Below are positions 2,051 to 18,166 of a DNA stretch of 64,000 bases, one piece after another. The position numbers were made by a program, and so were the translations under genes. The notes under the pieces were generated by a model. It did no database searches and was not told the origin of the DNA. It saw nothing but the letters and a program-made list of their open reading frames with translations. The stretch's first letter is position 1; each line of letters opens with the position of its first letter. Origin of the DNA: Candidatus Eremiobacterota bacterium (GTDB lineage Bacteria; Vulcanimicrobiota; Vulcanimicrobiia; Vulcanimicrobiales; Vulcanimicrobiaceae); assembly GCA_019240525.1 (NCBI GenBank), contig JAFAYE010000001.1:345300-409299 (forward strand). The letters are read 5' to 3'.

Positions 2051-3442
2051 CTAGGCGAGCGTCGTCTGCGTTCGAGCTTGTCGCGAGTTGGAAGAGCGAG
2101 CGGCGGGGACGTTGGGATATTCGCCGATGAGGCATCCCAAACACATCTCTTCGCGCTTGCGGCCGACCGCTTCGATCAATCCTTCGAGGCTCAGGTAGCC
2201 GAGCGAATCCGCCCCGGTCTTTTGACGAATCTCTTCGACCGAATAGTTAGCAGCGATAAGCTCGTCGTACGTCGCCATGTCGACGCCCAGATAACACGGA
2301 TGCTTGATCGGTGGCGACGTGATGCGCAAATGCACTTCGCGCGCCCCGGCTTCGCGCACAAGTGCAACGATTCGCGGGGTCGTCGTTCCCCTGACGATCG
2401 AATCGTCGACAACGATTACCCGTTGATCGCGCAGATTCTCAACAACCGGGTTGAACTTGAGATGGACGCCGCGCGAGCGCATCCGCTGATCGGGGCTGAT
2501 GAACGTGCGGCCGATGTAGCGGTTCTTGATCAGCCCTTCGATATAAGGCAGGCCGCTCTCGGTCGCATATCCAATCCCGCCGGCGACCGCCGAGTCGGGA
2601 ACCGCCATCACGACGTCGCCCTCGCACGGATGTTCTTTGGCGAGCTGGCGCCCCATCGCGTACCGCGCCATGTAGACCGAACGCTCGTTAAACTTTGAGT
2701 CCGGGCGGGCGAAATAGATGTATTCGAACATGCAGAGCGCCGGTGTCGCTCGCTCGGACGTCGTTTGATACGACTCCAGGCCGTCCGCACTGATGCGCAC
2801 GATTTCCCCTCGCTCGATCTCGCGCAGGTATTGCGCTCCGATTGTCCCGAGCGCGCACGATTCCGAAGCCACGACGTAGCCGTTTTCGCCGAGGCGGCCG
2901 AGGCAAAGCGGCCGAACGCCCCACGGATCGCGAAAAGCGTAGAGTTCGCTGTGCGTGCAGAGCACGATTGAGTACGCGCCGCGCGCCGATGCCAAAACAG
3001 ACTCGATGCGTTCGAGCATCGTGCCCTTCGACTCGACGATGAGCTTTGCCATTACCTCGGAGTCGGAGCTCGCTTGGAGCACGGTCGTCGGTGCGAGCGA
3101 CTCGCGCAGCTCGTCGGTATTGGTTAGATTTCCGTTATGGGCGAAGGCGAAATCACCGAGATCGGAGCGCTCGAGCAATGGCTGCGCGTTGACGACGATC
3201 GAGGAGCCGGTGGTCGAATAGCGGGTGTGTCCGATGGCGACGTGACCGCTGAGGCCGGCCAAAATATCTTCATCGAAGATCGCGCCGAGCAGTCCCATCT
3301 CTTTATGCGAACGGATCGTGCCGCCGTCGGCCGCGGCGATGCCGGCCGACTCCTGTCCGCGGTGCTGCAGCGCGTAGAGCGCGAAGAAGGCTAGACGAGC
3401 GGCGTCACGCCCTGGTGCGAAGACCCCCGTTATCCCGCACAT
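2051..3442 (-). CDS. purF: Amidophosphoribosyltransferase (PRPP amidotransferase)
   Basis: PurF makes phosphoribosylamine from PRPP and glutamine, the first step of de novo purine synthesis. The N-terminal Ntn-hydrolase glutaminase has Cys2 directly after Met1 (MCGITGV), so only Met removal is needed to expose the nucleophile. The phosphoribosyltransferase domain carries the PRPP loop VIVVDDSIVRGTT. Cysteines in CMFEYIYFARPDS, HPCYLGVDM and MCLGCLIGEYP sit where the Bacillus-type enzyme binds a 4Fe-4S cluster, so this is probably the Fe-S, oxygen-sensitive subtype. At 463 residues it is of normal length. It is the distal gene of the minus-strand purine operon. Confidence 0.97.
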   Translation of the reverse strand: MCGITGVFAPGRDAARLAFFALYALQHRGQESAGIAAADGGTIRSHKEMGLLGAIFDEDILAGLSGHVAIGHTRYSTTGSSIVVNAQPLLERSDLGDFAFAHNGNLTNTDELRESLAPTTVLQASSDSEVMAKLIVESKGTMLERIESVLASARGAYSIVLCTHSELYAFRDPWGVRPLCLGRLGENGYVVASESCALGTIGAQYLREIERGEIVRISADGLESYQTTSERATPALCMFEYIYFARPDSKFNERSVYMARYAMGRQLAKEHPCEGDVVMAVPDSAVAGGIGYATESGLPYIEGLIKNRYIGRTFISPDQRMRSRGVHLKFNPVVENLRDQRVIVVDDSIVRGTTTPRIVALVREAGAREVHLRITSPPIKHPCYLGVDMATYDELIAANYSVEEIRQKTGADSLGYLSLEGLIEAVGRKREEMCLGCLIGEYPNVPAARSSNSRQARTQTTLA

Positions 3443-5393: not shown

Positions 5394-6662
5394 TTAGACG
5401 ATCTTGGCGATGTCGGTTCGGTAGGAGAGCGCATCGGTGCCGAGCCTTCCCGCAAGCTGCTTGACCGCGCCGTACGCGCGCGTTCGCGCTTGCGGCAGAT
5501 CGTCTCCAAGCGCCGTCACCGTCAGCACACGACCTCCACCCGATCGCACGGTGCCGTTATCCCGTTGCGAGGCCCCCCAAAAGGCGTGGCAGTCGTCGTC
5601 GAGGCCAATGTTGCCGCTCAACTCTTGCAGCGGCGTATTGCTGCGCGGGTAGTCACTGGTCGCTAAGACGACCGCGACGCAATGCCGCGCCGACGTCGTC
5701 ATGAGCGAGAGATCCATCGCGCCGCGCGCAACCGATTCCAGCAGCAACGCGAAATCGCCGTTTACACGGGGCAGCAATGCTTGCGCTTCGGGGTCACCGA
5801 ATCGCGCGTTGAATTCGATGACGCATGGTCCGTCTGCCGTCCACATGAGGCCGCAGTACAGGACGCCGACGTACTCCTCGCCTTCAGCTTGTAATCCTCG
5901 CAAAAGGGGCGCGAGAACGCTTTCGCGCACTCGGTCGTCGAGATCGCCGGGAAATCCGACCGGCGGCGAATATGCGCCCATCCCGCCGGTGTTCGGGCCA
6001 GTGTCGCCGTCGCCGGCCCGTTTGTAATCGCATGCGGCGGCGATCGGCACGATCGCGCGACCGTCGCAGAGCGCAAAGACACTCACTTCCCGACCCTCAA
6101 GCCGCTCCTCAAGGACCACATCGGATCCGCCGCCGGGAATCCGGGCAGCGCCGTACCATTCGTGCAAGACGCCGCGCGCCGCATCGCCATCGGGCGCGAT
6201 AACGACGCCTTTTCCCGCTGCGAGGCCGTCGGCTTTGATGACGACCGCGCCTTCCCAATCGTTGAGCGCGTTATTTGCCGCCTCGAGTGAATGCGCGATC
6301 ACGGCGCGCGCCGTCGGAATTCCGTGGCGCTCCATAAATCGCTTCGCGAAAATCTTACTCGACTCAAGGCGGCCGGCGGAACGGTTGGGGCCGAAGACGG
6401 CGATGCCGCCATCGCGCAACCGATCGCCGACGCCGGCTGCGATCGCCGTTTCGGGACCGAGCACGGCGAGGTCGATGCGTTCCTCCAGACAGCGCTGCGT
6501 GAGTCCTTTACCGTCGGTCGCGGCGAGATCCCAGTTCTCGCCACGCGACGCCGTGCCCGCGTTTCCCGGAGCGGCGAAGACCGCTTCGCACGACGGTGAC
6601 AATGCGAGTCGCCACGAAAGCGCGTCTTCGCGCGCACCGCTACCGACGACGAGAACGCGCAT
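5394..6662 (-). CDS. purD: Phosphoribosylamine-glycine ligase (GAR synthetase)
   Basis: PurD ligates glycine to phosphoribosylamine using ATP, the second step of purine synthesis. The 422 residues cover the full family: N-terminal VLVVGSGAREDAL, the PGNAGT loop, GPETAI, the ATP-grasp region VVIKADGLAAGKGV, the block NTGGMGAYSPP and the metal-binding VIEFNARFGDPEAQ. The ATG start is 3 bases after the guaA stop, so the genes are tightly packed in the operon (guaA-purD). PurN/PurT and PurM, needed for the following steps, are not in this window. Confidence 0.97.
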   Translation of the reverse strand: MRVLVVGSGAREDALSWRLALSPSCEAVFAAPGNAGTASRGENWDLAATDGKGLTQRCLEERIDLAVLGPETAIAAGVGDRLRDGGIAVFGPNRSAGRLESSKIFAKRFMERHGIPTARAVIAHSLEAANNALNDWEGAVVIKADGLAAGKGVVIAPDGDAARGVLHEWYGAARIPGGGSDVVLEERLEGREVSVFALCDGRAIVPIAAACDYKRAGDGDTGPNTGGMGAYSPPVGFPGDLDDRVRESVLAPLLRGLQAEGEEYVGVLYCGLMWTADGPCVIEFNARFGDPEAQALLPRVNGDFALLLESVARGAMDLSLMTTSARHCVAVVLATSDYPRSNTPLQELSGNIGLDDDCHAFWGASQRDNGTVRSGGGRVLTVTALGDDLPQARTRAYGAVKQLAGRLGTDALSYRTDIAKIV

Positions 6663-6665
6663 CGC

Positions 6666-8207
6666 CTATTCCCATTCGACGGTGGCGGGCGGCTTAGTCG
6701 TGATGTCGTAGGCAATGCGATTCACGCCGCGCACTTCATTAACGATTCGCGCCGAGATTCGTTCGAGGAGCTCGTGCGGCAGACGGGCCCAGTCGGCGGT
6801 CATCCCGTCTTCGCTGGTAATCGCACGGATCGCCATCAGATTTGCGTAGGTTCTGCCGTCACCCATCACGCCGACGCTTTTGACCGGAGTCAATACGGCA
6901 AAATACTGCCACGGTCGCGGATCGAGATCGGCAGCATCGATTTCCTCGCGCACGATCGCGTCGGCGCCACGAAGAATTTCAAGCCGCTCGTCGGTCACGT
7001 CGCCGATGATGCGCACTGCCAAGCCGGGGCCCGGAAACGGCTGCCGACCCACGATATTCTCCGGCAGGCCCAACGCTCGCCCCAGCTCGCGCACTTCGTC
7101 TTTGAAGAGCGAGCGCAGCGGCTCGATCAGCAGCAGCCCCATCTTCTCGGGCAGGCCGCCGACATTGTGGTGCGACTTGATTTTCTCGCCGGCCTTGCTT
7201 TGGGGTGTCTTCGATTCGATCACGTCGGGATAGAGCGTGCCTTGTACGAGGTACTTCACGCCGGGGATCTTCGCAGCTTCCTGTTCGAAGACGTCGATGA
7301 ATTCGTGACCGATGATCACGCGCTTGCGCTCGGGGTCTTCGACGCCCCGCAGTTTTCGTAAGAACCGCTCGCGGCCATCGACCGCCACGACGTTGAGATG
7401 CAGCAGCTCTCGAAAAGCGGCGAGCACTTCGTCGGCCTCGTGGCGTCGAAGCAACCCATGATCGACGAAGATGCAGGTGAGCTGCTCGCCGACCGCGCGA
7501 GCGACCAAGGTTGCAGCCACCGCCGAATCGACGCCCCCCGAAAGTGCGCAGATAACTTTATCGCTTCCGACCTTGCTGCTAATCTCCGCAATCGAATGCT
7601 CGAGAAACGATTCCATCTTCCAATCGCGCCCAAGTCCCGCTATCTCACCGAGAAAATTGTCGAGGACCGTTCGTCCGTGCTCCGTCTGAATCACTTCCGG
7701 ATGGAATTGAACCCCGTAGATCTTCTTCTTCGCGTTGCCCATCGCGGCGATGTGGCAGCGCGTCGTCGACGCCAGCGCCCGATAGCCCCCAGGAAGCGCA
7801 ACGACCGAATCGCCATGCGACATCCAGACGCGCGACTCTTCCGGCACGCCGTCGAAGAGCGGCGTGTCGCGATCGCCGACTACCAAGGTGGCTGGACCGT
7901 ACTCGGCATGATCGAGTTTGACGAGTTTGGCGCCCACGTCGCGCGCGAGCAGCTGCATGCCGTAACAAATTCCCAGAATGGGTACGCCCGATTTTACAAC
8001 GGCGGCGTCCATGTCCGGAGCGCCCTCGACCAGCGTGCTCTCCGGGCCGCCTGAGAGAATCAGCGCCGCCGGCTCTCGCAGCGAGAGCGCGCTCCACGGC
8101 GCGTCGTGCGGCACGATCTCGCAATAGACGCCCAACTCGCGCACGCGCCTTGCGATCAACTGGCCATACTGCGCGCCGAAGTCGAGGACGAAGACCGTTT
8201 CGGGCAT
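6666..8207 (-). CDS. guaA: GMP synthase (glutamine-hydrolysing)
   Basis: GuaA converts XMP to GMP. The class I glutamine amidotransferase domain has the nucleophile in GICYGMQLL and the His-Glu pair in GVQFHPEV; the ATP-pyrophosphatase domain starts with the PP-loop ALSGGVDSAVAA; the C-terminal dimerisation domain ends in the usual ITTKPPATVEWE. Its 513 residues match the typical length. Placing guaA inside the IMP operon couples guanine nucleotide formation with IMP supply. It follows tpx by 6 bases. Confidence 0.98.
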   Translation of the reverse strand: MPETVFVLDFGAQYGQLIARRVRELGVYCEIVPHDAPWSALSLREPAALILSGGPESTLVEGAPDMDAAVVKSGVPILGICYGMQLLARDVGAKLVKLDHAEYGPATLVVGDRDTPLFDGVPEESRVWMSHGDSVVALPGGYRALASTTRCHIAAMGNAKKKIYGVQFHPEVIQTEHGRTVLDNFLGEIAGLGRDWKMESFLEHSIAEISSKVGSDKVICALSGGVDSAVAATLVARAVGEQLTCIFVDHGLLRRHEADEVLAAFRELLHLNVVAVDGRERFLRKLRGVEDPERKRVIIGHEFIDVFEQEAAKIPGVKYLVQGTLYPDVIESKTPQSKAGEKIKSHHNVGGLPEKMGLLLIEPLRSLFKDEVRELGRALGLPENIVGRQPFPGPGLAVRIIGDVTDERLEILRGADAIVREEIDAADLDPRPWQYFAVLTPVKSVGVMGDGRTYANLMAIRAITSEDGMTADWARLPHELLERISARIVNEVRGVNRIAYDITTKPPATVEWE

Positions 8208-8213
8208 CGCGCT

Positions 8214-8753
8214 CTACGCTGCGGCCGCGGCCGCCTTGAGTGCCTCGTCGTAGTTAGGCTCGCTCGCGACTTCCGGAACGATCTGGACGTACTTGATCGT
8301 TCGATCCTTGCCGATGACGACGACGGCGCGCGCGAGCAATCCAAGCTCTTCGATCAAGAGTCCGTAGTTGACTCCGAAACTGCGATCGCGATAATCGGAG
8401 AGCATCTGCAGCTTGACGTCTCCTTGCGCACCGCACCAGCGAGCCTGCGCAAACGGTAGGTCCATGCTAACGACGGCCGCCCGCACGCCCGCAGGCAACT
8501 CGCCGAGGCGAGCGTTGAATTTGTGCGATTCGGTCGAGCAGACGCTCGTGTCGAGAGAGGGAACGACGATCAGCATCGCGGCCCGCGTTCCTTCGTCTAA
8601 GAGAACGTCGAGATTGACCGACGAGAGATCGCCGGCGGTCAACGCGAACTGTGGGGCGGGATCGCCCGCGCGCAGTTGCGGTCCGAGCAAGGTCATTGAA
8701 TTCCCTTTGAAAGTAACGGCGTCGCGTCGGGATTGAACCGAATCCACGGTCAT
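8214..8753 (-). CDS. tpx: Thiol peroxidase (Tpx-type peroxiredoxin)
   Basis: An atypical 2-Cys peroxiredoxin that reduces hydroperoxides with thioredoxin. The peroxidatic cysteine lies in PSLDTSVCSTESHKFN and the resolving cysteine in LPFAQARWCGAQG, both in their Tpx positions; SFGVNYGLLIEELGLLARAVVVI is also diagnostic. The ATG at 8753 has a strong Shine-Dalgarno (AGGAGG, 5-6 bases upstream). The 179 residues include a few extra N-terminal residues compared with E. coli Tpx. Its position between purP and guaA is unusual and suggests that peroxide defence is co-expressed with purine synthesis. Confidence 0.95.
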   Translation of the reverse strand: MTVDSVQSRRDAVTFKGNSMTLLGPQLRAGDPAPQFALTAGDLSSVNLDVLLDEGTRAAMLIVVPSLDTSVCSTESHKFNARLGELPAGVRAAVVSMDLPFAQARWCGAQGDVKLQMLSDYRDRSFGVNYGLLIEELGLLARAVVVIGKDRTIKYVQIVPEVASEPNYDEALKAAAAAA

Positions 8754-8781: not shown

Positions 8782-9939
8782 CTATGTCAACACATCGGAG
8801 AGGCGATCGGTGTCGCGCGCCATCACGACCTCCATCGCAATGCGCTCTCCGACCGAGACGTCACGTCCCCAGCGGTAGGCTGAATACGGCGTATAGCGCG
8901 TGCCGGGCGAGCCGGGTACGCGAAGTGAGACATCGTAGCAGACCAGCTCCTTGGGCGGCCCGGCGGTAATCACGCATTGGAGTGCAAACGGTCCGATAAC
9001 CCCTGGAGCCGTCAGTTCGCGCGCCGCTTTGACGAAACGGGCGCCCATCTCGAAAGCGGGCTCGAGCATCGACTCGAGGACGGTCGCGGCGACGTGGCCG
9101 GCCTCCTCCAATCGTAACGGCACGTTTCGCGCGGCCTCAAATGCCGCCGGCGGCAGGTTTCGGAAACCTTCGAGATTCGTTTGACGCCGGGTGTCGGTTC
9201 CAGAGAGCTCCAGCTCGTCCAACAACGGCGAATAAAAGAAGTTGAAGTTTACCGACGGTCCCAGCGCGTACTCCTCAATGCGCGCCGTTGCGAGCCCATC
9301 CGAGGTCAGCGTTCCTTCTTCGATCAACCGGCTCGCGGTCGCGCGATACTCCAGCGGGGAAGACGCCAAGAAAAACGCCCGCTCGAAGTTCACGCGGGCG
9401 TGCGGCGCCTTGATCATCACCAACGTGTCGATCTCCTCGGGAGACCGCACCTCGCGGGGATGACGGATCCCTGCCCGCTTCAGCAGCGCATACTGATCCA
9501 TCCCATCTGCAGGTTCGTCGGGCGACACGGCGCGTTCTTCGGCGCGCAACAAATGGCGATTGCCGAAGAACGGCACCTGCATGCGTCCTTCGATCTGCCC
9601 GTAATCGAATTTTTGCCGGAGATAGACTTCGAACGACCGATTTGGAACGAAGATCACGTTCTGAGCGAGTAATCGCTCTTGAACCTCGTCGTTCAAAATA
9701 TCGGCGAAGAACTCGAGCGCTAGCGTTTCGTCGACACACCCGCGGGCCGGGTTCTGCTTCGCGGCAAAGTAGTGCGCGTACGTCTTCTCACGGCCGGCGG
9801 CGGTAACGATCAGATTGCGCAAGCCCTGCGTGCGCGCGCCGTAGGTGATCTCCAAGGCCGAGTGGCTGCCAATCGAGCACAGAGTTAAAGCCGAGCGGTC
9901 GTATCGAGCGAGCGCGTGCGCGACCTGCTCTTTGCTCAA
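8782..9939 (-). CDS. purP: PurP-like ATP-grasp ligase (FAICAR synthetase family), second paralogue
   Basis: This 385-residue protein matches the archaeal PurP family, which makes FAICAR from AICAR, formate and ATP without folate. Visible are the N-terminal GSHSALEITYGA (His26 in the substrate-binding loop), GREKTYAHYF, IFVPNRSFEVYL, FFGNRHLLRAEER, IEEYALGPSVNFNFFYSPL, a TNLEG block and the C-terminal YDVSLRVPGSPG and SVGERIAMEV. Compared with the neighbouring paralogue it has a longer N-terminus and YDVS in place of MEIS near the metal site, so its substrate may differ. The start is TTG at 9939, one base after the upstream stop. The family is well supported; the exact reaction is inferred. 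Confidence 0.85.
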   Translation of the reverse strand: MSKEQVAHALARYDRSALTLCSIGSHSALEITYGARTQGLRNLIVTAAGREKTYAHYFAAKQNPARGCVDETLALEFFADILNDEVQERLLAQNVIFVPNRSFEVYLRQKFDYGQIEGRMQVPFFGNRHLLRAEERAVSPDEPADGMDQYALLKRAGIRHPREVRSPEEIDTLVMIKAPHARVNFERAFFLASSPLEYRATASRLIEEGTLTSDGLATARIEEYALGPSVNFNFFYSPLLDELELSGTDTRRQTNLEGFRNLPPAAFEAARNVPLRLEEAGHVAATVLESMLEPAFEMGARFVKAARELTAPGVIGPFALQCVITAGPPKELVCYDVSLRVPGSPGTRYTPYSAYRWGRDVSVGERIAMEVVMARDTDRLSDVLT

Positions 9940-9940
9940 C

Positions 9941-11056
9941 CTACGTGCCTAGGAGCTTTCGCGCTTGCGGGCTGTCTTGATATTCGATCGTTAGAATAGC
10001 GCGCAGCTCGCCGGCCGCCTGGCGTGACTCGCCGTCACTCATGCGCTGGAGCGTCACGTAACACCAATACAGCAGCATCGGCAAATCGCGATCGCGTGGA
10101 TAGACCTTCTGCATGTCGACGATTGCGTGCGCTACGTTCGTGCCTTCACCACTCTCGCGATTGCCGTAGTCGTAGTCGAGCATGAAGTTGATGTGCTTGA
10201 GCCGATTCTGGATCTCGAGAATCGACATGTTCATCGGCCCGAAGTACTCGTCCGCCGGGGCGAGCGTCGTAAGATACACGTCGTGCGGCACGGCATTGAC
10301 CGTCGCGATGACGCGGATCGGATCGACCGCGCGCAGTCGCGCGAGAAAACGCTGGGCGTTGGCAACGTCGGCGCCGGTGTAGCCGCGATCGGTCGAGGCG
10401 CCGTTCGCGGCATTGACCAACTCATTGCCCCAGTTCGTCGGCAAGTGCGCCACCGGAAAGTTCGGCGCGGCGGCGCGCGCGAGCGCCAGGGATCGCCATT
10501 GCGGCTCGCGGGTCAAGAGCCACGCACGCCAATCGGCCTCGGCTTGGATGAGTAGCGCGTCGACGTCGCCGGGATACGTCTTGACGTTCGCCCCGGCGTC
10601 CACGTCGGCGAGCCGGGCGAGCTCCTGCGCATCCTCCTCAGTATTGACGCGTTGCAGCAGGGCCTGCGCCTGCGCGATAAGTTGCAGGTCGTCGGAGTGC
10701 TTCATCACCCAGTTCGCCGCCTCGCGCACCCACCACACGGCCCCATCGTGATTCGTGAGCGGATTATAATGAAGGCCCATGCCGATCCGCACGGTCAATG
10801 TCGCTAGCTCGCCGTAGTTGGGATCGTCGGGATATTGCAGCGAGTAGGCACGACCGGCATTAAAGATCGTCGCCAGGTAGATCTCTTCCGAGCGAAAGTC
10901 CCAGCCGGCGGCCGCGCCCTTGGCATACGCATCCTTCATTTGTGCGTAAAGGACGGCGGGGTCAACCTCGAGCGTCGCTCGGGCAGGGCCCACCGTCAAC
11001 AACGGCATCAGCAGCGCGATGAGCGCCGCGGCGAGTTTAGAGTACGCTCGAATCAT
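9941..11056 (-). CDS. Secreted helical protein of unknown function between the two purP genes
   Basis: I do not recognise this 371-residue protein. It begins with a clear Sec signal peptide (hydrophobic run LAAALIALLMPLL, cleavage probably after ARA near residue 27) and has no lipobox cysteine. The mature part is Ala-rich and mostly helical, with repeated pairs of helices that could be TPR-like (segments around residues 40-75, 105-135, 165-200 and 300-371). There are no obvious catalytic motifs. Its ATG overlaps the end of the upstream purP by 20 bases and its stop is one base from the next purP, so it is embedded in the purine operon despite being exported. Orthologue conservation between purP genes would be informative. 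Confidence 0.7.
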   Translation of the reverse strand: MIRAYSKLAAALIALLMPLLTVGPARATLEVDPAVLYAQMKDAYAKGAAAGWDFRSEEIYLATIFNAGRAYSLQYPDDPNYGELATLTVRIGMGLHYNPLTNHDGAVWWVREAANWVMKHSDDLQLIAQAQALLQRVNTEEDAQELARLADVDAGANVKTYPGDVDALLIQAEADWRAWLLTREPQWRSLALARAAAPNFPVAHLPTNWGNELVNAANGASTDRGYTGADVANAQRFLARLRAVDPIRVIATVNAVPHDVYLTTLAPADEYFGPMNMSILEIQNRLKHINFMLDYDYGNRESGEGTNVAHAIVDMQKVYPRDRDLPMLLYWCYVTLQRMSDGESRQAAGELRAILTIEYQDSPQARKLLGT

Positions 11057-12059
11057 CCAGCACCAAATGCAAGTTATTCGTCAGAAGGGCGTTCTTAATT
11101 TCGCGGGCGATGCGCCTTCCGGTTGACATCGGTTCCGAATAGTTCAGATACGAGTACGGCGACCCATCGATGAAAAGATTCGTTCCGGCGACGATGCGCG
11201 CCGAGATCTCCATCACGTAGAATTGGATGTCGGGCGTAATGATCGTTTCGATGCAGAATGCGCCGAAGAGGCCCTTGGGTCCGCAAATTTCTTTGCTGAC
11301 CCGCACGACGTCGTCACCCATGCGCAAGGCTTCCGCGAGCATCGATTCGCGCAGCGAAACCGGCTGATTGCCGACGACGACATAGGAGGGGCTGACGTCC
11401 ATGCCTTCCTGGGCCGCGGCCGGGATGCGGCCGAGCGAATCGACGTTGGTCTCATAGCGGCGATCCATCGACATGATTTCTAGCTTACGCGCAAGCGGCG
11501 AGTAAAAGTAATGAATGTAGAGCGGTACTCCGATAATATATTCTTGTATCGTGTAGGCTTCTTTAAGATGCGCCGCCCGTGCCTCGAAATCGTGGGTGTC
11601 CCTAATGAACATGTAACCTTTGCCGCCGGCCGCGCCATAGAGCTTCACGATCACCGGACGATCGATTTCGCCTGCGCTGCGAAATTGACGCGGTAAGGTG
11701 AGCCCCGCGCGCGAAAGCCACTCGCGCTGCAGCTCGCGGCTGGCTTCCCAATCGAGCACCGCCTTGTTTCCAAAGTAGGGAATCGTCATTTTTTTGTGTT
11801 CGGCCAGGGAGAGATATGCGACGAAAGAGCCGTGGGGCACAATGATAACCTTACGCCGCTGCAGCTCGTCGATCTGCGACATGAACTCGGAGTAGTCGTT
11901 GAGGGTGATGACTTCATCGACGAATGCAAGAGACCGGTAAAGGCGCTCGGTCTCACGGTTGGGGATGGCGAGCGTACGGAATCCTTCGTCGTGCGCGCCT
12001 TTCAGAATTTGCAGCGCCGAATGCGAGCCTAATGTCGCAATGGTGTACGGCCGGTCCAT
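11037..12059 (-). CDS. purP: 5-formaminoimidazole-4-carboxamide ribonucleotide synthetase (PurP)
   Basis: A 340-residue ATP-grasp ligase closely matching canonical archaeal PurP, which formylates AICAR to FAICAR with formate and ATP. Motifs: IATLGSHSALQILKGA (His13), IIVPHGSFVAYL, YFGNKAVLDWEASRE, VKLYGAAGGKGYMF (nucleotide-binding), IQEYIIGVPLYIHYFYSPL, YETNVDSLGR, and the C-terminal metal and nucleotide block YVMEISARIVAGTNLF followed by GSPYSYLNY and STGRRIAREIKNAL. It follows the PurS-like gene by 10 bases and overlaps the secreted-protein gene. PurP is normally an archaeal replacement for the folate-dependent AICAR transformylase half of PurH; the operon context supports that function here. 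Confidence 0.92.
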   Translation of the reverse strand: MDRPYTIATLGSHSALQILKGAHDEGFRTLAIPNRETERLYRSLAFVDEVITLNDYSEFMSQIDELQRRKVIIVPHGSFVAYLSLAEHKKMTIPYFGNKAVLDWEASRELQREWLSRAGLTLPRQFRSAGEIDRPVIVKLYGAAGGKGYMFIRDTHDFEARAAHLKEAYTIQEYIIGVPLYIHYFYSPLARKLEIMSMDRRYETNVDSLGRIPAAAQEGMDVSPSYVVVGNQPVSLRESMLAEALRMGDDVVRVSKEICGPKGLFGAFCIETIITPDIQFYVMEISARIVAGTNLFIDGSPYSYLNYSEPMSTGRRIAREIKNALLTNNLHLVLDDSSVL

Positions 12060-12069
12060 GCGCCGCTAT

Positions 12070-12504
12070 CTACTCGCTCGCGCCGAGAATGTCCCGGTTG
12101 CTTGGGTCGCGCTTCGTTATCGCGCGATCGATCGCTGGATTGCATAATAGGCGTTCGATTGCCGCATCGAGCACGTCGTCGCCGACGGCGCGTCCACTCG
12201 CGTCGAAGAGCTGCCAGGCAACGGCTGCGGGACCGCACCCTGGCACGAGCGACGCAATCCACACCGCCCCATCACCCGGCGCAAGACCATCGAGAAGGCG
12301 CAGGCGATGTTTATTGGGGTTGAAGACCGTTTCATCGGAAATCACGCGCTTGCGCAGCGATTCAATGTCGCCGCCGTCATCCATGAGCCAAATATCGCTG
12401 CGCTCGATGCGATCGACCGCGACGTCGAGTCTTCGCAATGCAACCAGCGCGGTGTACGCGGTATTGTCCGGAATCTTCAGGCTGATGGAAACGGCGCGGC
12501 GCAT
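12070..12504 (-). CDS. purS: Divergent, extended PurS-like subunit of FGAM synthase
   Basis: PurS bridges PurQ and small PurL in the FGAM synthase complex. This 144-residue protein sits exactly in the purS slot, its ATG overlapping the purQ stop by one base (TAATG). The N-terminal part (about residues 5-41) has a beta-alpha-beta pattern, and the C-terminal helix reads AIERLLCNPAID (about 115-126), echoing the LLxNPVIEDY end of ordinary PurS. Typical PurS is about 80 residues, so there is a long central insertion (about residues 42-108). The assignment is mainly from position and the C-terminal motif; it might instead be a lineage-specific assembly factor. Confidence 0.6.
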   Translation of the reverse strand: MRRAVSISLKIPDNTAYTALVALRRLDVAVDRIERSDIWLMDDGGDIESLRKRVISDETVFNPNKHRLRLLDGLAPGDGAVWIASLVPGCGPAAVAWQLFDASGRAVGDDVLDAAIERLLCNPAIDRAITKRDPSNRDILGASE

Positions 12505-13280
12505 TATGGCGTCCGCAGCGCAACGGCGTGGACGAAGCTGCGAAATAGCACGGCTCCGCCGGACGGGGCCAGGACGTCGTCGCCGTCGGCGCGGTCGAGA
12601 TGATTGAAGTTCCAGCCGTCGCGTTCGGGATGCGGCATGATCGCCAGCACGTTACCCTCGCGATTGACCAGTCCCGCACAGTGAAGCGCGGAGCCGTTTG
12701 GGACCGCGGCATCGTCGACCGTTCCATCGGCGTGCGCGTAGAGAAAGGCCAGATGGTCCCCGACGACGATTTCATCGAGGTGCTGCGGGGTTGCAGCGAG
12801 CCGTCCTTCGGCGTGAGCGGCCCACGCCGGAACGAGCGCACCAGGCGGCAACCCGGCAGTGATCGCGCATCGCGACGGCGCGATCGCAAGTTTCAACTGC
12901 ACGTGCCGGCAGACGAAGTGCGGCTGCGGCCCGTTCTTTGCGAACGCGGCGGTCGGCCGGCGGCGCGGGCCGGTGCCGGGAACGAGCCCGGCCTCGAGCA
13001 GTATCTGCGCGCCGTTGCATATCCCAAAGACGAGCTTGCCCGAGGCGGCGCCGTCGATCACGAAATCCATGATGCGATCGTGAGCTGCGATGGCGCCGGC
13101 GCGAATGCGATCTTCATAGGCGAAGCCGCCGGAAAGCACGTACGCATCGTATTCGGCCAAACGGTCGCCATGCGACCAATGCACGAGGTCCGCGTTGCCG
13201 CCGCAATCGCGGAGCAAACGGACGGTCTCGTCTTCAGAGTTGGTGCCCGGAAAGACCGGTACGGCGATGCGCGCGCTCAC
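12504..13280 (-). CDS. purQ: FGAM synthase glutaminase subunit
   Basis: PurQ releases ammonia from glutamine for FGAR amidation by PurL. The glutaminase features are visible: IAVPVFPGTNSEDE at the start, YVLSGGFAYEDRIRAG, the nucleophile in FGICNGAQILLEAGL and the His-Glu pair in MPHPERDGWNF. The chosen start is the GTG at 13280 overlapping the purL stop (GTGA); the frame is open for 30 bases further upstream, but these precede the conserved start. At 258 residues it is slightly longer than average because of a longer C-terminal region. It is coupled on both sides (purL, purS-like). Confidence 0.95.
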   Translation of the reverse strand: MSARIAVPVFPGTNSEDETVRLLRDCGGNADLVHWSHGDRLAEYDAYVLSGGFAYEDRIRAGAIAAHDRIMDFVIDGAASGKLVFGICNGAQILLEAGLVPGTGPRRRPTAAFAKNGPQPHFVCRHVQLKLAIAPSRCAITAGLPPGALVPAWAAHAEGRLAATPQHLDEIVVGDHLAFLYAHADGTVDDAAVPNGSALHCAGLVNREGNVLAIMPHPERDGWNFNHLDRADGDDVLAPSGGAVLFRSFVHAVALRTP

Positions 13281-15484
13281 GGAAAAAGCTCGGCGAGCGG
13301 GCTCGACCATATCTCAAACAAGTGCGGAATCGCGAAACGAACGCCGTTGACGACGAGCTCCGAGCCCGCGATGGTTTGCCCGATGCGCAACGCGCCGGTA
13401 AGGTCGATGCCGCTGTCATCGCTGACCTCGCAAATGAAACCGCCGGCCTCGCAGAGTGGATTTCCAAAGTCAATTTCCGCGCCGATCGCACGCCGCCGCG
13501 CCATCGCATCGAACGCCAGACGCACGAGCGCGGTCAGCATGCCGCCCGCCCCGATCGCTCGACACGAGCGCAGCACACCGAGCGCGATCGCATCGCGTAG
13601 AATGCCCACAGCCGCGCGCTCGCCCGCGTACGAAATCGATGGCAGGGTCCCTTGAAGACCGAGCAGTTCCGCGAGCACCGACCCGCCGACGGCCAGCTCG
13701 CGGCTGCCGATCCAAAGCAAAACGGATCCAGCTTCCTTCAGACCCGGCGTAACGACGTTACTCACGTCGTCGATCGCGCCGATGCACGATACAATCGCCG
13801 ATGCCGGCACCGCGGTGCCCGACGCCGACTCGTTATAGAGGCTGACGTTGCCCGACACGAACGGCAGGTCAAGCTGCGTGGCCGCGCGAGCGAGCCCCTC
13901 AACTGCGGCGACAAACTCGCCGTACTGCTCGGGGTTGCGCGGGTTGCCGAAGTTCAGGCAATCGGTCAGACCGATCGGTCGCGCGCCGACCGCGACGATT
14001 TGCCGCATCGCCTCAACCACGGCGTGCTCGGCAGCGTACCGCGGATCGATTCGTCCATACCGCGGATTTCCCGCAACGGCGAGCGCAACGCCAATGGGCG
14101 AGCCCGGAATCGGCGCGAGCACGCCGGCGCCGGCCGCGCCTCGCGGTAGAACGGTGCGGCCGCGAACGACGGCATCGTAGCGCCGGTAGAGCGGCTCGCG
14201 CGACGCTACTCCACGATGCGCCAGCACGCGGGGCAGAAGCGTCTCGACGTCGACCGCCGGCAACTCCTCATGGGATCCAGCGTGGCGAATCACCTCGGTG
14301 TACGGAAGGTCGTCGCGAATAGCGCCGGTGAGAAATTCGCTTTCCACGTCCATCACCACGTTGCCGCAATAACGCAGGACGTAGCGGCGTTCTGAGGTGA
14401 CGCGTCCCACAATCGTTGCACGCGCGTTGTAAGCGATCTCCGGGAGCGTGAACTCTTCGTTATAGACTCGCACCACCTCCGGTGCGACGTCGGGTGGGAG
14501 CACCCAGAGCAAGCGCTCCTGCGTCTCGCCGACGGCAATGACTTCCGGGGGCATTCCCGCGATCGCCACGTTGACGCTATCGAGATTGATTGCGGCTCCG
14601 TAGCCGCCCTGTGCCGTAATTTCGGCCGAGCAGCCCATCAGGCCGCCCGCGCCCAAGTCTTTGAACGCCGCGGTGATCTTTCGCTCGCGCAGCAAAGCAA
14701 AAACTCGATAACTCGCCCGCATGAGCACGTTCTTGAGAAACGGATCCGGAACTTGAACCGCGCCCTTATTGCCGGCGGTTTCGTCGGGGTCGAGCGTTAG
14801 CGAAGAGAACGAGGCACCCCCGAATCCACTTGGATCCGTGGCCTTGCCCACGAGGACGATGGCCCAATCCTCGGCGCCCTTGGGTGCGAACGAATGAATC
14901 AGTTCGCTCTCTTTAACGACGCCCAAGGCGACGACGTTCACGAGGCAGTTCGCCTCGAAGCCTTCTTCGAAATAGACATTGCCGGTCAGGTTCGGTACGC
15001 CGATCGCGTTGCCGTAGGCGCCGACTCCGTCCACGACCCCGTTTGCAATGTTACGCGCCTGCGTCGTAGGGTCGTCGGCCCTTCCAAAACGCAACGCGTC
15101 TGCAACCGCGATGACTTCCGCACCCATGCAGAGGACGTCGCGAACGATGCCGCCGACACCGGTCGCCGCACCTTCGAACGGGACGATCTGGGAAGGGTGA
15201 TTGTGTGATTCGTGCGCGACGACGATCGCATAAGCATCGCCCGCGTGCGTTCCAAGACGCAGCGCTCCGGCATCTTCGCCCGGCCCCAAAACGACGCCGG
15301 CGCCGCTCGTCGGCAGTCGCTTTAAGTGATGGCGGCTCGATTTATAGCTGCAATGCTCGCTCCATTGTGCGTCAAAGGCATGCAGCTCGACGAGTGTCGG
15401 CTCCCGACCGAGCCGCTCTGTGATGCGCTGCAGCTCGTCGTCTCGCAGCGCGACGTTCGGTGGCCCGGAGAGCCCACTAAGCAA
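13277..15484 (-). CDS. purL: FGAM synthase large subunit (small PurL type)
   Basis: PurL converts FGAR to FGAM with ATP and ammonia from PurQ. The 735-residue length identifies the small-PurL type that needs PurQ and PurS. Seen are FDAQWSEHCSYKSSR, AIVVAHESHNHPSQIVPFEGAATGVGG, FKDLGAGGLMGCSAE and, in the second half, LTDCLNFGNP and VSGNVSLYNES. The start is a TTG at 15484 with a GGGAG ribosome-binding site 7 bases upstream, overlapping the end of the purC-purE gene by 8 bases. It is coupled to purQ downstream. Confidence 0.97.
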   Translation of the reverse strand: MLSGLSGPPNVALRDDELQRITERLGREPTLVELHAFDAQWSEHCSYKSSRHHLKRLPTSGAGVVLGPGEDAGALRLGTHAGDAYAIVVAHESHNHPSQIVPFEGAATGVGGIVRDVLCMGAEVIAVADALRFGRADDPTTQARNIANGVVDGVGAYGNAIGVPNLTGNVYFEEGFEANCLVNVVALGVVKESELIHSFAPKGAEDWAIVLVGKATDPSGFGGASFSSLTLDPDETAGNKGAVQVPDPFLKNVLMRASYRVFALLRERKITAAFKDLGAGGLMGCSAEITAQGGYGAAINLDSVNVAIAGMPPEVIAVGETQERLLWVLPPDVAPEVVRVYNEEFTLPEIAYNARATIVGRVTSERRYVLRYCGNVVMDVESEFLTGAIRDDLPYTEVIRHAGSHEELPAVDVETLLPRVLAHRGVASREPLYRRYDAVVRGRTVLPRGAAGAGVLAPIPGSPIGVALAVAGNPRYGRIDPRYAAEHAVVEAMRQIVAVGARPIGLTDCLNFGNPRNPEQYGEFVAAVEGLARAATQLDLPFVSGNVSLYNESASGTAVPASAIVSCIGAIDDVSNVVTPGLKEAGSVLLWIGSRELAVGGSVLAELLGLQGTLPSISYAGERAAVGILRDAIALGVLRSCRAIGAGGMLTALVRLAFDAMARRRAIGAEIDFGNPLCEAGGFICEVSDDSGIDLTGALRIGQTIAGSELVVNGVRFAIPHLFEIWSSPLAELFP

Positions 15485-16676
15485 TCGTCGCTCCCTGCGG
15501 GATCGGCACTTGCTGTTGCAGCGACGCGTCGGCGTGCAGAACGCTCGAACGCGCGTTGGCCTGCATCAATAGCGTACGCCCATAAAGAACCGTGTCTTCC
15601 AAACCCAACAGCTTGGCGCATTGCATGGCGAGCTGCTGCGGTTCCATGGTGCCGTCCAGGACCGGCGCCGACGAGGTCGCATCGAGCATGGCGCGTAGCA
15701 CGTCGTTCTCGCCGACGGCAATCAAAATCAATCGAGCGAAGCTCGCTTCGAGCTGCTGCGTGAGCTGCAAGACGAAACCGGGTGTCGTCGACGGGCTGGC
15801 GACATGCCGAATCGTCGGAAGGCCGAGTTGTCCGAGTGCTTTGATCGCATCGCTCGCGCGCTCCACCCGCGCCGGCGAATCGGCGATGACCGCGGCCATG
15901 CCGGGTCGCATCACCGGAAACGTACCGACGAAGTCTGCGACCCGCTCGTACGCTTTCTTCACGCGATCCAACGCGCCGTCGTCTACCGATTCGAGGTTCC
16001 TATAAATCTGTTTGTCGAGCATCAGCTCTTCACGCCCCTGCGGCCAAATGCGCCACGAGTCGTTGTCGATCACGTCGGCGATCACAAGCTGTCCCTGATT
16101 TTCGCCGCCCGCGAGGCGTCCGAACTCGATCTTGAGATCAACGAGCAAAACATCGCGCTTGCGCCACGCGTGCGAAAGAATGTCGAACGTCAACCGCGCA
16201 AGCTCGGTCATGATGCCGATTTCCGATGGTGAGGCGATGCTTTGGGCGACGATCTGATCGGGTGCGATCAGCGGATCGTGAGCGGCGTCGTCCTTGAAGA
16301 AAAACTCGATGACCCGCGGGACGAGCAACGTCCCCCGCTGCAGAGTAGGATTGCGCTTGACCAACGACCCCGCGGCCACGCCGCGCGTGACGACTTCGAG
16401 CGGAATCATGTTAGCGCGCCGCACGACCATTTCATTATCGTCGTCGTCTTCGCCGCCGTTGAGATAGTGCGTCGGCAAACCGCAGAGATTGAGCAGCCGA
16501 AAGACGCGTGCCGTGGTTTGCGCCGCAAGCCGCCCCTTGCCGGCGATCTGATGACGCCGGGCGCCATCGCCCGCCGAGATGTTGTCCATCTGAGTTACGA
16601 CCAACTGGTGCGGCTGCCCCGGATTTTCGAAAAGCGCCTTCGTCTTGCCGCGCGCGATCTCGATGCCTTTATTCAC
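15477..16676 (-). CDS. purC: SAICAR synthetase fused to a degenerate PurE-like domain
   Basis: Residues 1 to about 250 are SAICAR synthetase (PurC), which joins aspartate to CAIR with ATP: ARGKTKALFE, PLEVVTRGVAAGSLVKR, LVDLKIEFG, IADVIDNDSWRIWP and LDKQIYR are all present. Residues about 258-385 follow the PurE fold pattern in the PAICS order (PurC then PurE), but the PurE signature is lost: the SDW loop reads ADSPA, SAHRTP reads ASPSTTP, and no AGGAAHLPGM equivalent is present. The domain is therefore probably not catalytic as an AIR carboxylase or N5-CAIR mutase. The gene follows purB by 15 bases. PurC is secure; the PurE-like call is from motif alignment by eye. Confidence 0.9.
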   Translation of the reverse strand: MNKGIEIARGKTKALFENPGQPHQLVVTQMDNISAGDGARRHQIAGKGRLAAQTTARVFRLLNLCGLPTHYLNGGEDDDDNEMVVRRANMIPLEVVTRGVAAGSLVKRNPTLQRGTLLVPRVIEFFFKDDAAHDPLIAPDQIVAQSIASPSEIGIMTELARLTFDILSHAWRKRDVLLVDLKIEFGRLAGGENQGQLVIADVIDNDSWRIWPQGREELMLDKQIYRNLESVDDGALDRVKKAYERVADFVGTFPVMRPGMAAVIADSPARVERASDAIKALGQLGLPTIRHVASPSTTPGFVLQLTQQLEASFARLILIAVGENDVLRAMLDATSSAPVLDGTMEPQQLAMQCAKLLGLEDTVLYGRTLLMQANARSSVLHADASLQQQVPIPQGATIA

Positions 16677-16691
16677 CGCTCACTCCTGACA

Positions 16692-18107
16692 TCAGACGCG
16701 CACCTCGAGTTGCCGGGGAAACGCGGCAAGCGAGTCTATTCGATCGGCAAGCAGCCGCGCGCGCTGCGGAGCGGTACCAACGTGCGTGCTGGGATCGAGC
16801 ATGCGGCGAATCTCCGCGGGATCGATTCTGGCGGTCAGCTCGGCGTCCTCGGCGAGAAGACGCGAGAGCGGATTATCCTCGCCGCGTGCGACTGCGGCCC
16901 ACGCTTCCATCGATGCACCGCGCAGGCTTTCGTGCAGATGCTGGCGGTCTCCGCCGGCGCGCGCGGCTTCCAAGAGCACCGACTGCGTGCCGGCGAACGG
17001 CGCGTACGTGCGCAGATTGGCGGCAATGCGCCGCTCGTCCACGCGCAATCCCTCGATCACCGTGCGCGCGAGCGAAACGATTTCATCCACGCAAAGCAAA
17101 GCCTCAGGCAAGATGATGCGCCGGTTCGCACTGTCGTCGAGCGTTCGCTCGAGAAAGTTTGTCGCAGCGTTTTGCCAGGCGACGTCGGCATACGCGGGCA
17201 GCATGCGCGCGAGCGACCCAATGCGTTCCGAAATGACCGGATTTTGCTTGAAGGGCATCGCCGAACTGCCGACCTGGTCCTTTCCGAACGGCTCGGCGAT
17301 TTCGCCAAAACCTGGGCTGGCGAGCACGCGCACGTCGGCCGAAAACTTCGAGAGGGTCGCGCCGACTCCGGCAAGCGCGGTCAGCAGTAAGTAGTCGAGC
17401 TTGCGCGGGTAGGTCTGCGTGCTGATCTCGCGCGCGAGCAAACCAAACCGTTCCAGGACGTAGCCTTCGATATCCGCCGACCGCCCATTATGGTCCATGA
17501 GGCGCTCGTACGATGCGGCGGTGCCGACCGCGCCGCGCATGCCCTTCGTCGTCAGATTGTCGAAGACGAAACGCAGATGCTCGTCATCGACGAGCAGATC
17601 TTGCGCGTACGAGGCAAGGCGGTAACCCAACGTCGTCGGCTCGGCCGGCTGCAAATGCGTGTACGCCATGCAAACCAGGTCGGCGTAGCGCCGGATTCGA
17701 AGGCAAAAGGCGGCGAGCAGCGCGCCAAGATTCTCGCCAACATGCGATAGCGCTAAGCGGAGCCGATAGGTCTCGACGGTGTCTTCGACGTCCATTGACG
17801 TAGCGCCGAGATGAAGTTTTCCTCCGCCGCGCTTCGCCTGCTGCGCGAAGACGCGGATCTCGGCCATCAAATCGTGGTGAATCTCGCGTTCGATTTCTGC
17901 CGCAGCCTCAATGTCGATCTCGCCGGCGTGGGCGCGAAGATCGTCAACCTCGGCTTCTTCGATCAAGCCCTGTGCCGATTGCGCTTCGGCAAGCGCTACC
18001 CAGACAGCACGCCAGAGCCGTCGGCGCATCTTTTCCGAGAAGAGCGCGCGCAACGGCGCACGGCCGTACCTCCACGAGAACGGCGAGGCATAGGATTCGT
18101 AATCCAT
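16692..18107 (-). CDS. purB: Adenylosuccinate lyase
   Basis: PurB cleaves SAICAR to AICAR plus fumarate and adenylosuccinate to AMP plus fumarate. The signature SSAMPFKQNP of the fumarase/aspartase superfamily is visible, with LHLGATSMDVEDT (substrate loop), YTHLQPAEPTTLGYR and the C-terminal domain. I chose the ATG at 18107 (MDYESYASPFSWRYG), where homology begins; the open frame continues upstream to a TTG with unrelated sequence. The resulting 471 residues match the family. It is the first gene of the minus-strand purine operon, divergent from the peptide-binding lipoprotein gene with only about 60 bases between starts. Confidence 0.96.
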   Translation of the reverse strand: MDYESYASPFSWRYGRAPLRALFSEKMRRRLWRAVWVALAEAQSAQGLIEEAEVDDLRAHAGEIDIEAAAEIEREIHHDLMAEIRVFAQQAKRGGGKLHLGATSMDVEDTVETYRLRLALSHVGENLGALLAAFCLRIRRYADLVCMAYTHLQPAEPTTLGYRLASYAQDLLVDDEHLRFVFDNLTTKGMRGAVGTAASYERLMDHNGRSADIEGYVLERFGLLAREISTQTYPRKLDYLLLTALAGVGATLSKFSADVRVLASPGFGEIAEPFGKDQVGSSAMPFKQNPVISERIGSLARMLPAYADVAWQNAATNFLERTLDDSANRRIILPEALLCVDEIVSLARTVIEGLRVDERRIAANLRTYAPFAGTQSVLLEAARAGGDRQHLHESLRGASMEAWAAVARGEDNPLSRLLAEDAELTARIDPAEIRRMLDPSTHVGTAPQRARLLADRIDSLAAFPRQLEVRV

Positions 18108-18166
18108 GAACGGCGCTGCCTTCGCTTCGCGGGAAGGGGCGGCCTCGTTACCGTACGGCCCCAATC

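Follow-up and report, generated by a model that had tools for sequence, protein, structure and literature searches.

A linked pair of archaeal-type PurP proteins in the purine operon of Vulcanimicrobiota, mostly encoded together with PurH

The window analysed here, a stretch of 64,000 nucleotides (nt) from Candidatus Eremiobacterota bacterium, carries two genes for PurP-like ATP-grasp proteins within a bacterial purine operon. These genes, here designated P1 (11037-12059, minus strand, 340 amino acids) and P2 (8782-9939, minus strand, 385 amino acids, TTG start), raise the question what two members of a family that was still called exclusively archaeal in a comparative study of 2014 (PMC4177761) do in a bacterium. 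An earlier note, made from the sequence of the window, had proposed that they replace PurH, the bifunctional 5-aminoimidazole-4-carboxamide ribonucleotide (AICAR) transformylase/inosine monophosphate (IMP) cyclohydrolase. Our analysis shows instead that P1 and P2 are a linked pair that is mostly found together with PurH. They constitute no novel family and are a bacterial, class-wide case of a known archaeal pair.

Both proteins matched the two PurP domains of Pfam far above the curated cut-offs, with E-values of 2.7e-66 (DUF1297) and 7e-40 (DUF1246) for P1 and of 3e-53 and 3e-31, respectively, for P2. Among proteins of solved structure, Pyrococcus furiosus PF1517 was the best match of P1 (phmmer, 4e-98, 49% identity) and Methanocaldococcus jannaschii MJ0136 that of P2 (phmmer, 3e-62, 36% identity). 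With the PurP motifs named in the earlier note also present, its recognition of two archaeal-type PurP paralogues in a bacterial purine operon was confirmed. Brown et al. (2011; PMC3261824) distinguished three clusters of archaeal PurPs, Ia, Ib, and II, the last of which is marked by a His in place of Asn258 and by a P-loop region that is two residues longer. As judged from residues and phylogeny, P1 is a PurP of cluster Ib and P2 one of cluster II.

P1 contains H27, S94, E230, N258, S266, E297, E310, and R314 as well as a GGKG loop, and thus has the full list of residues with which MJ0136 contacts AICAR, formate, and metal; across 96 P1 sequences these residues varied little or not at all. 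P2 differs at the contact positions by the replacements N258H, E310D, and E230Q and by an adenosine triphosphate (ATP) loop that is two residues longer. Its phosphate and formyl contact residues are retained, while the ATP loop and metal ligands are remodelled. The difference between the metal blocks of the two copies, previously suggested to mark two functional classes, proved real and systematic and matched the archaeal clusters Ib and II: position 258 was Asn in 96/96 P1 and His in 83/83 P2 sequences, position 310 was Glu in 96/96 P1 and Asp in all 82 aligned P2 sequences, and the loop measured 11 residues in 96/96 P1 (with GG-G in each) versus 13 in 83/83 P2 sequences. Since P2 has a strict residue signature of its own (H258/R164/Q297/R314, in 83/83 sequences), it is not a decaying copy. 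An AlphaFold2 model of P2 predicted a complete PurP fold (mean predicted local distance difference test score, pLDDT, 88.7; template-modelling score, TM, 0.93 to 2r7m).

In a tree with archaeal PurPs, a check already proposed in the earlier note, all P1 sequences were split from all P2 sequences. P1 fell in a clade with PF1517 (support 96), and the P2 clade (support 99) included the second copies of Thermococcus and Methanothrix; PF0421, the cluster II protein of P. furiosus, was not part of the set. The same lineages occurred in both clades, and the duplication therefore predates the spread of the pair into these groups.

The occurrence of the pair in the class of the window, a lineage of soil bacteria (Vulcanimicrobiota/"Eremiobacterota"), was assessed in 117 genomes covering three family codes (f1-f3). 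A PurP domain was found in 111/117, PurH in 109/117, both in 103/117, and neither in 0/117 genomes, and PurP-positive genomes nearly always had two copies. At 19 further loci, which came from all three families of the class, the gene order purB-C-L-Q-P1-(middle gene)-P2-guaA-D-F was kept wherever the contig reached; over these loci, identity to the window was 72-91% for P1 and 58-73% for P2. The number of positive genomes, together with an operon that was conserved wherever it could be read, excludes chance as an explanation of the PurP pair. Genome G118 carries P1 and P2 (locus L083) as well as PurH, and the cultured Vulcanimicrobium alpinum (WC8-2) very probably carries the pair. One genome (G102/G191; loci L101 and L103) showed two full sets of the pair, with four PF06973 matches; the two P1 loci were on different contigs and the reported contamination was 7%. 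Two records titled Rhodospirillales (L092, L093) had the Eremiobacterota-type P1-middle gene-P2 arrangement and look misnamed.

In the other families of the phylum, no PurP was found except in one genome, G146. This sequence (L084) was set aside, as its contig contains runs of N and its neighbouring genes are methanogen-like; it probably stems from Methanothrix contamination. Several nearly complete genomes outside the class (G001, G003, G005, G011, and relatives; families f4, f5, and f9) contained neither a PurH nor a PurP domain, and the organisms may be purine auxotrophs or users of another route.

P1 relatives outside the class were sought in one scan of genome contigs with a cluster Ib query. 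Among the matches listed, archaeal relatives were from Thermococci, Methanothrix, Methanofastidiosia, Woesearchaeota, and Nano-, Heimdall-, Bathy-, Brock-, and Thaumarchaeota, and bacterial relatives outside the class were from Patescibacteria; no PurP relative was found on viral contigs, and no PurP on plasmids. The earlier view that a PurP operon is unusual for a bacterium hence needs softening, as the trait is class-wide in Vulcanimicrobiota and also present in Patescibacteria. A search of the open-access literature, with subscription papers outside its scope, yielded no paper on PurP in either group.

Via the matched P1 loci, 44 pair-bearing genomes were followed up, four of which belonged to the class of the window. 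All 44 had at least two PurP copies; PurH was present in 30 and PurO in three, and 12 had neither. Several of the PurH-less genomes were small or incomplete metagenome-assembled genomes. P1 and P2 were mostly neighbours on one strand and often touched or overlapped. In Woesearchaeota the order was P1-P2-guaA, and in Curtissbacteria P1-purA-P2-purB, preceded by purL and purQ and followed by guaA. Within the class of a Peribacteria genome, PurP occurred in 39/117 genomes, with exactly two copies in 38 of the 39, and PurH in 76/117; 37 genomes had both, 2 only PurP, 39 only PurH, and 39 neither. This association was positive (Fisher p 4e-7, uncorrected for relatedness); of the 37 genomes with both, 13 had PurH no more than 10 kb away from P1. 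In three small genomes (G158, G179, G186), the N-terminal stretch of PurH appeared as a separate match and the frame crossed one in-frame TGA.

How the pair reached bacteria was addressed with trees of P1 and of P2. P1 of the class was sister to P1 of Curtissbacteria (100/99). For P1, a single bacterial clade was borderline (p 0.06). For P2, it was rejected (approximately unbiased test, p 0.009), while a clade of the class with Curtissbacteria was not (p 0.39). These tests suggest that the pair likely entered bacteria at least twice. Transfer from archaea, as put forward before, is compatible with the trees, but they fix neither donor nor direction.

The genome of the window (2.8 Mb, 97% complete) itself encodes PurH (PF01808, 7e-93; G000:C1:1419309-1420268), on the same contig and approximately 1.0 Mb away. 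The protein is full length (525 amino acids) and aligned end to end with Mycobacterium tuberculosis PurH (3zzm). PurO, for which a whole-genome search had been suggested, was absent, with no match to PF07826 in this genome, which sets the genome apart from the PurP-PurO pathway of methanogens. Nor was there a match above threshold to Fhs, so that free formate has no evident entry into the folate pool. PurT gave only sub-threshold ATP-grasp matches. PurN is present and carries an N-terminal GNAT acetyltransferase domain; the fusion gene (L063, 1222-2400; G000:C1, approximately 341.7-342.3 kb) lies just outside the window and adjoins a PurM-like frame.

What, then, might the pair do beside PurH? 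In the reading that we favour, if tentatively and at slightly less than an even chance, P1 and P2 form a two-protein module for formate- and ATP-dependent formylation of AICAR, with P1 as the catalytic protein, a proposed formate-dependent AICAR ligase, and P2, with its altered active site, as its obligate partner. P1 would carry the formate-activating site, at which ATP and formate would yield formyl phosphate. With the transfer of the formyl group from formyl phosphate to AICAR, at its 5-amino group, 5-formamidoimidazole-4-carboxamide ribonucleotide (FAICAR) would be formed, and P2 would be required for, or control, turnover of P1. PurH would close FAICAR to IMP, and two routes to the same formylation, folate-dependent via PurH and formate-dependent via P1/P2, would exist in one cell. 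From general biochemistry, formate could be supplied by riboflavin synthesis, folate synthesis, or deformylation of the start methionine. AICAR and formate as substrates, a complex of P1 and P2, and the division of labour between them are what we infer here. The near-strict two-or-none pattern suggests that P1 and P2 need each other, and a required partner would explain the reported lack of AICAR formyltransferase activity in PF1517 and in PF0421 when either was on its own (PMC3261824).

A number of observations weigh against this reading. Both proteins fell below the NCBIfam equivalog cut-offs for formate-phosphoribosylaminoimidazolecarboxamide ligase (P1, 383 versus 590 bits; P2, 243 versus 556 bits), and we therefore claim homology and not the enzyme name. 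In P1 of the window, the P-loop motif begins with Ala in place of Lys or Arg. The KH..PCG motif of the PurH transformylase (K266-H267) was kept in 31/31 PurH proteins read, and a complete PurH would make the proposed P1/P2 activity redundant. The correlation of the P1 and P2 distance matrices was not stronger than that of guaA/purL control pairs and did not discriminate between the readings. The reported inactivity of PF1517 could also mean that it acts on another substrate.

In the strongest rival explanation, the pair would either carry out some other ATP-grasp reaction or control purine flux, as an add-on to a complete PurH pathway. It would accord with the positive association of PurP and PurH in the Peribacteria class, with the closeness of PurH to the pair (within 10 kb) in 13 genomes of that class, with the fact that genomes of only about 1 Mb have kept both, with the recurrent linkage to guaA, and with the reported inactivity on AICAR of the P. 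furiosus proteins of clusters Ib and II (PMC3261824). However, no AICAR or formate contact of MJ0136 is missing from P1, and crystals of PF1517 contained ATP or adenosine monophosphate (AMP) plus AICAR, according to the titles of the structure entries. We regard this explanation as less likely than not.

It is more doubtful that P1 formylates AICAR while P2 acts as IMP cyclohydrolase, in which case the pair would be a complete formate-driven alternative to PurH. This idea, raised from distribution by Brown et al. (2011; PMC3261824), fits the 12/44 pair-bearing genomes with neither PurH nor PurO. It also fits P2 itself, which has kept the phosphate and formyl contacts, has lost the P-loop (cyclisation needs no ATP), and carries an invariant His in place of the Asn that contacts the carboxamide. 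Yet PurH, with a cyclohydrolase domain of its own, accompanies the pair in 30/44 pair-bearing genomes, 103/117 genomes of the class, and 37/39 positives of the Peribacteria class, and several of the PurH-less genomes are small or incomplete.

It is very unlikely that P1 is, alone, an ordinary formate-dependent AICAR formyltransferase that operates when folate one-carbon units are short, with P2 as a linked paralogue of unrelated role. The full active site of P1 and the lack of a detected Fhs in the genome of the window would agree with such a role, but P1 and P2 hardly ever occur without each other and the P1-type PF1517 was reported inactive singly (PMC3261824). Finally, replacement of PurH by PurP, as the earlier note had it, is consistent with a window that contains no PurH but is contradicted by the full-length gene elsewhere on the same contig and by PurH in most genomes of the class, and can be set aside as extremely improbable.

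Returning to the favoured two-protein module, it may be, with a probability that we place clearly below even, that P1 and P2 make up a heteromeric enzyme that is active only together and performs a non-redundant purine step beside PurH, in two lineages of bacteria as well as in many archaea, perhaps as a full formate-driven AICAR-to-IMP enzyme or with an undescribed reaction. The two PurP genes spread and are maintained as one unit, with a class-wide bacterial case in Vulcanimicrobiota and a second one in Patescibacteria; that this happens mostly alongside PurH argues against the pair existing to fill the place of a missing PurH. The role of clusters Ib and II has been a question since 2011, and V. 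alpinum, a cultured mesophilic aerobe, would bring the pair within experimental reach.

P1 and P2 are not adjacent in the window, as the interval 8782-12059 comprises three genes, the middle one of which (9941-11056, minus strand) encodes 371 amino acids. This gene shares 20 nt with the end of P1, and its stop lies 1 nt ahead of the TTG start of P2; in view of this overlap and spacing, the three genes probably share one message for translation. The middle gene was restricted to family f1 among the genomes compared, and profile searches assigned it to no Pfam or NCBIfam family. Its N-terminus is a signal-like helix, and a seemingly exported protein is thus predicted to be encoded within a purine operon. 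The structure model predicted an all-helical repeat fold (pLDDT 83.8) and had no match in the PDB at E below 1e-3.

The remainder of the operon, likewise on the minus strand, supports the placement of the pair between guaA and a purS-purQ-purL-purC-purB series as far as a common operon is concerned, but besides the middle gene between the copies, a gene of the redoxin/AhpC-TSA family (8214-8753; Pfam, 6e-19) stands between P2 and guaA. GMP synthase (guaA, 6666-8207; PRK00074), purD (5394-6662; TIGR00877), purQ (12504-13310; TIGR01737), the small form of purL (13277-15484; TIGR01736), and the adenylosuccinate lyase gene purB (16692-18164; TIGR00928) all scored above their NCBIfam cut-offs. PurF (2051-3442), with an amidotransferase and a weak phosphoribosyltransferase match, was syntenic throughout the class. 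The gene in the position of purS (12070-12504, 144 amino acids) suggests a candidate PurS by that position, but its sequence gave no sign of PurS, with zero Pfam matches even at E = 1. PurC (15477-16676; SAICAR_synt, 5e-57) has a C-terminal extension with a weak, below-cut-off match to PurE (AIRC, 2e-4), and in this it resembles the animal PurC-PurE fusion.

Compared with known systems, the pair shares with PurH the proposed step, AICAR to FAICAR, whereas PurH is an unrelated protein that uses 10-formyl-tetrahydrofolate as donor and is co-encoded in the genome of the window. MJ0136, the cluster Ia FAICAR synthetase (2r7k-2r7n), is similar to P1 in fold and active-site residues and to P2 in fold; P2 differs from it at N258, E310, E230, and the ATP loop. 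Cluster Ia PurPs are mostly present as a single copy and without PurH1 (PMC3261824). The pairs of Patescibacteria (Curtissbacteria, Peribacteria, Peregrinibacteria) are alike in the linkage of P1 and P2, but unlike in the class of the window, purA separates the two genes in Curtissbacteria and distribution in the Peribacteria class is patchy. Archaeal genomes with a cluster Ib protein carry one protein of cluster II (PMC3261824), and it is this archaeal pair, exemplified by PF1517 and PF0421 of P. furiosus, that P1 and P2 resemble in having one protein per cluster per genome, in N258 versus H258 and the two additional loop residues of cluster II, in having purB, guaA, and further purine genes as neighbours, and in co-occurrence with PurH, as in Methanosarcinales. 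They differ from it in their bacterial host, in sitting within a complete bacterial purine operon across a whole class, and, in one family, in the third gene between P1 and P2.

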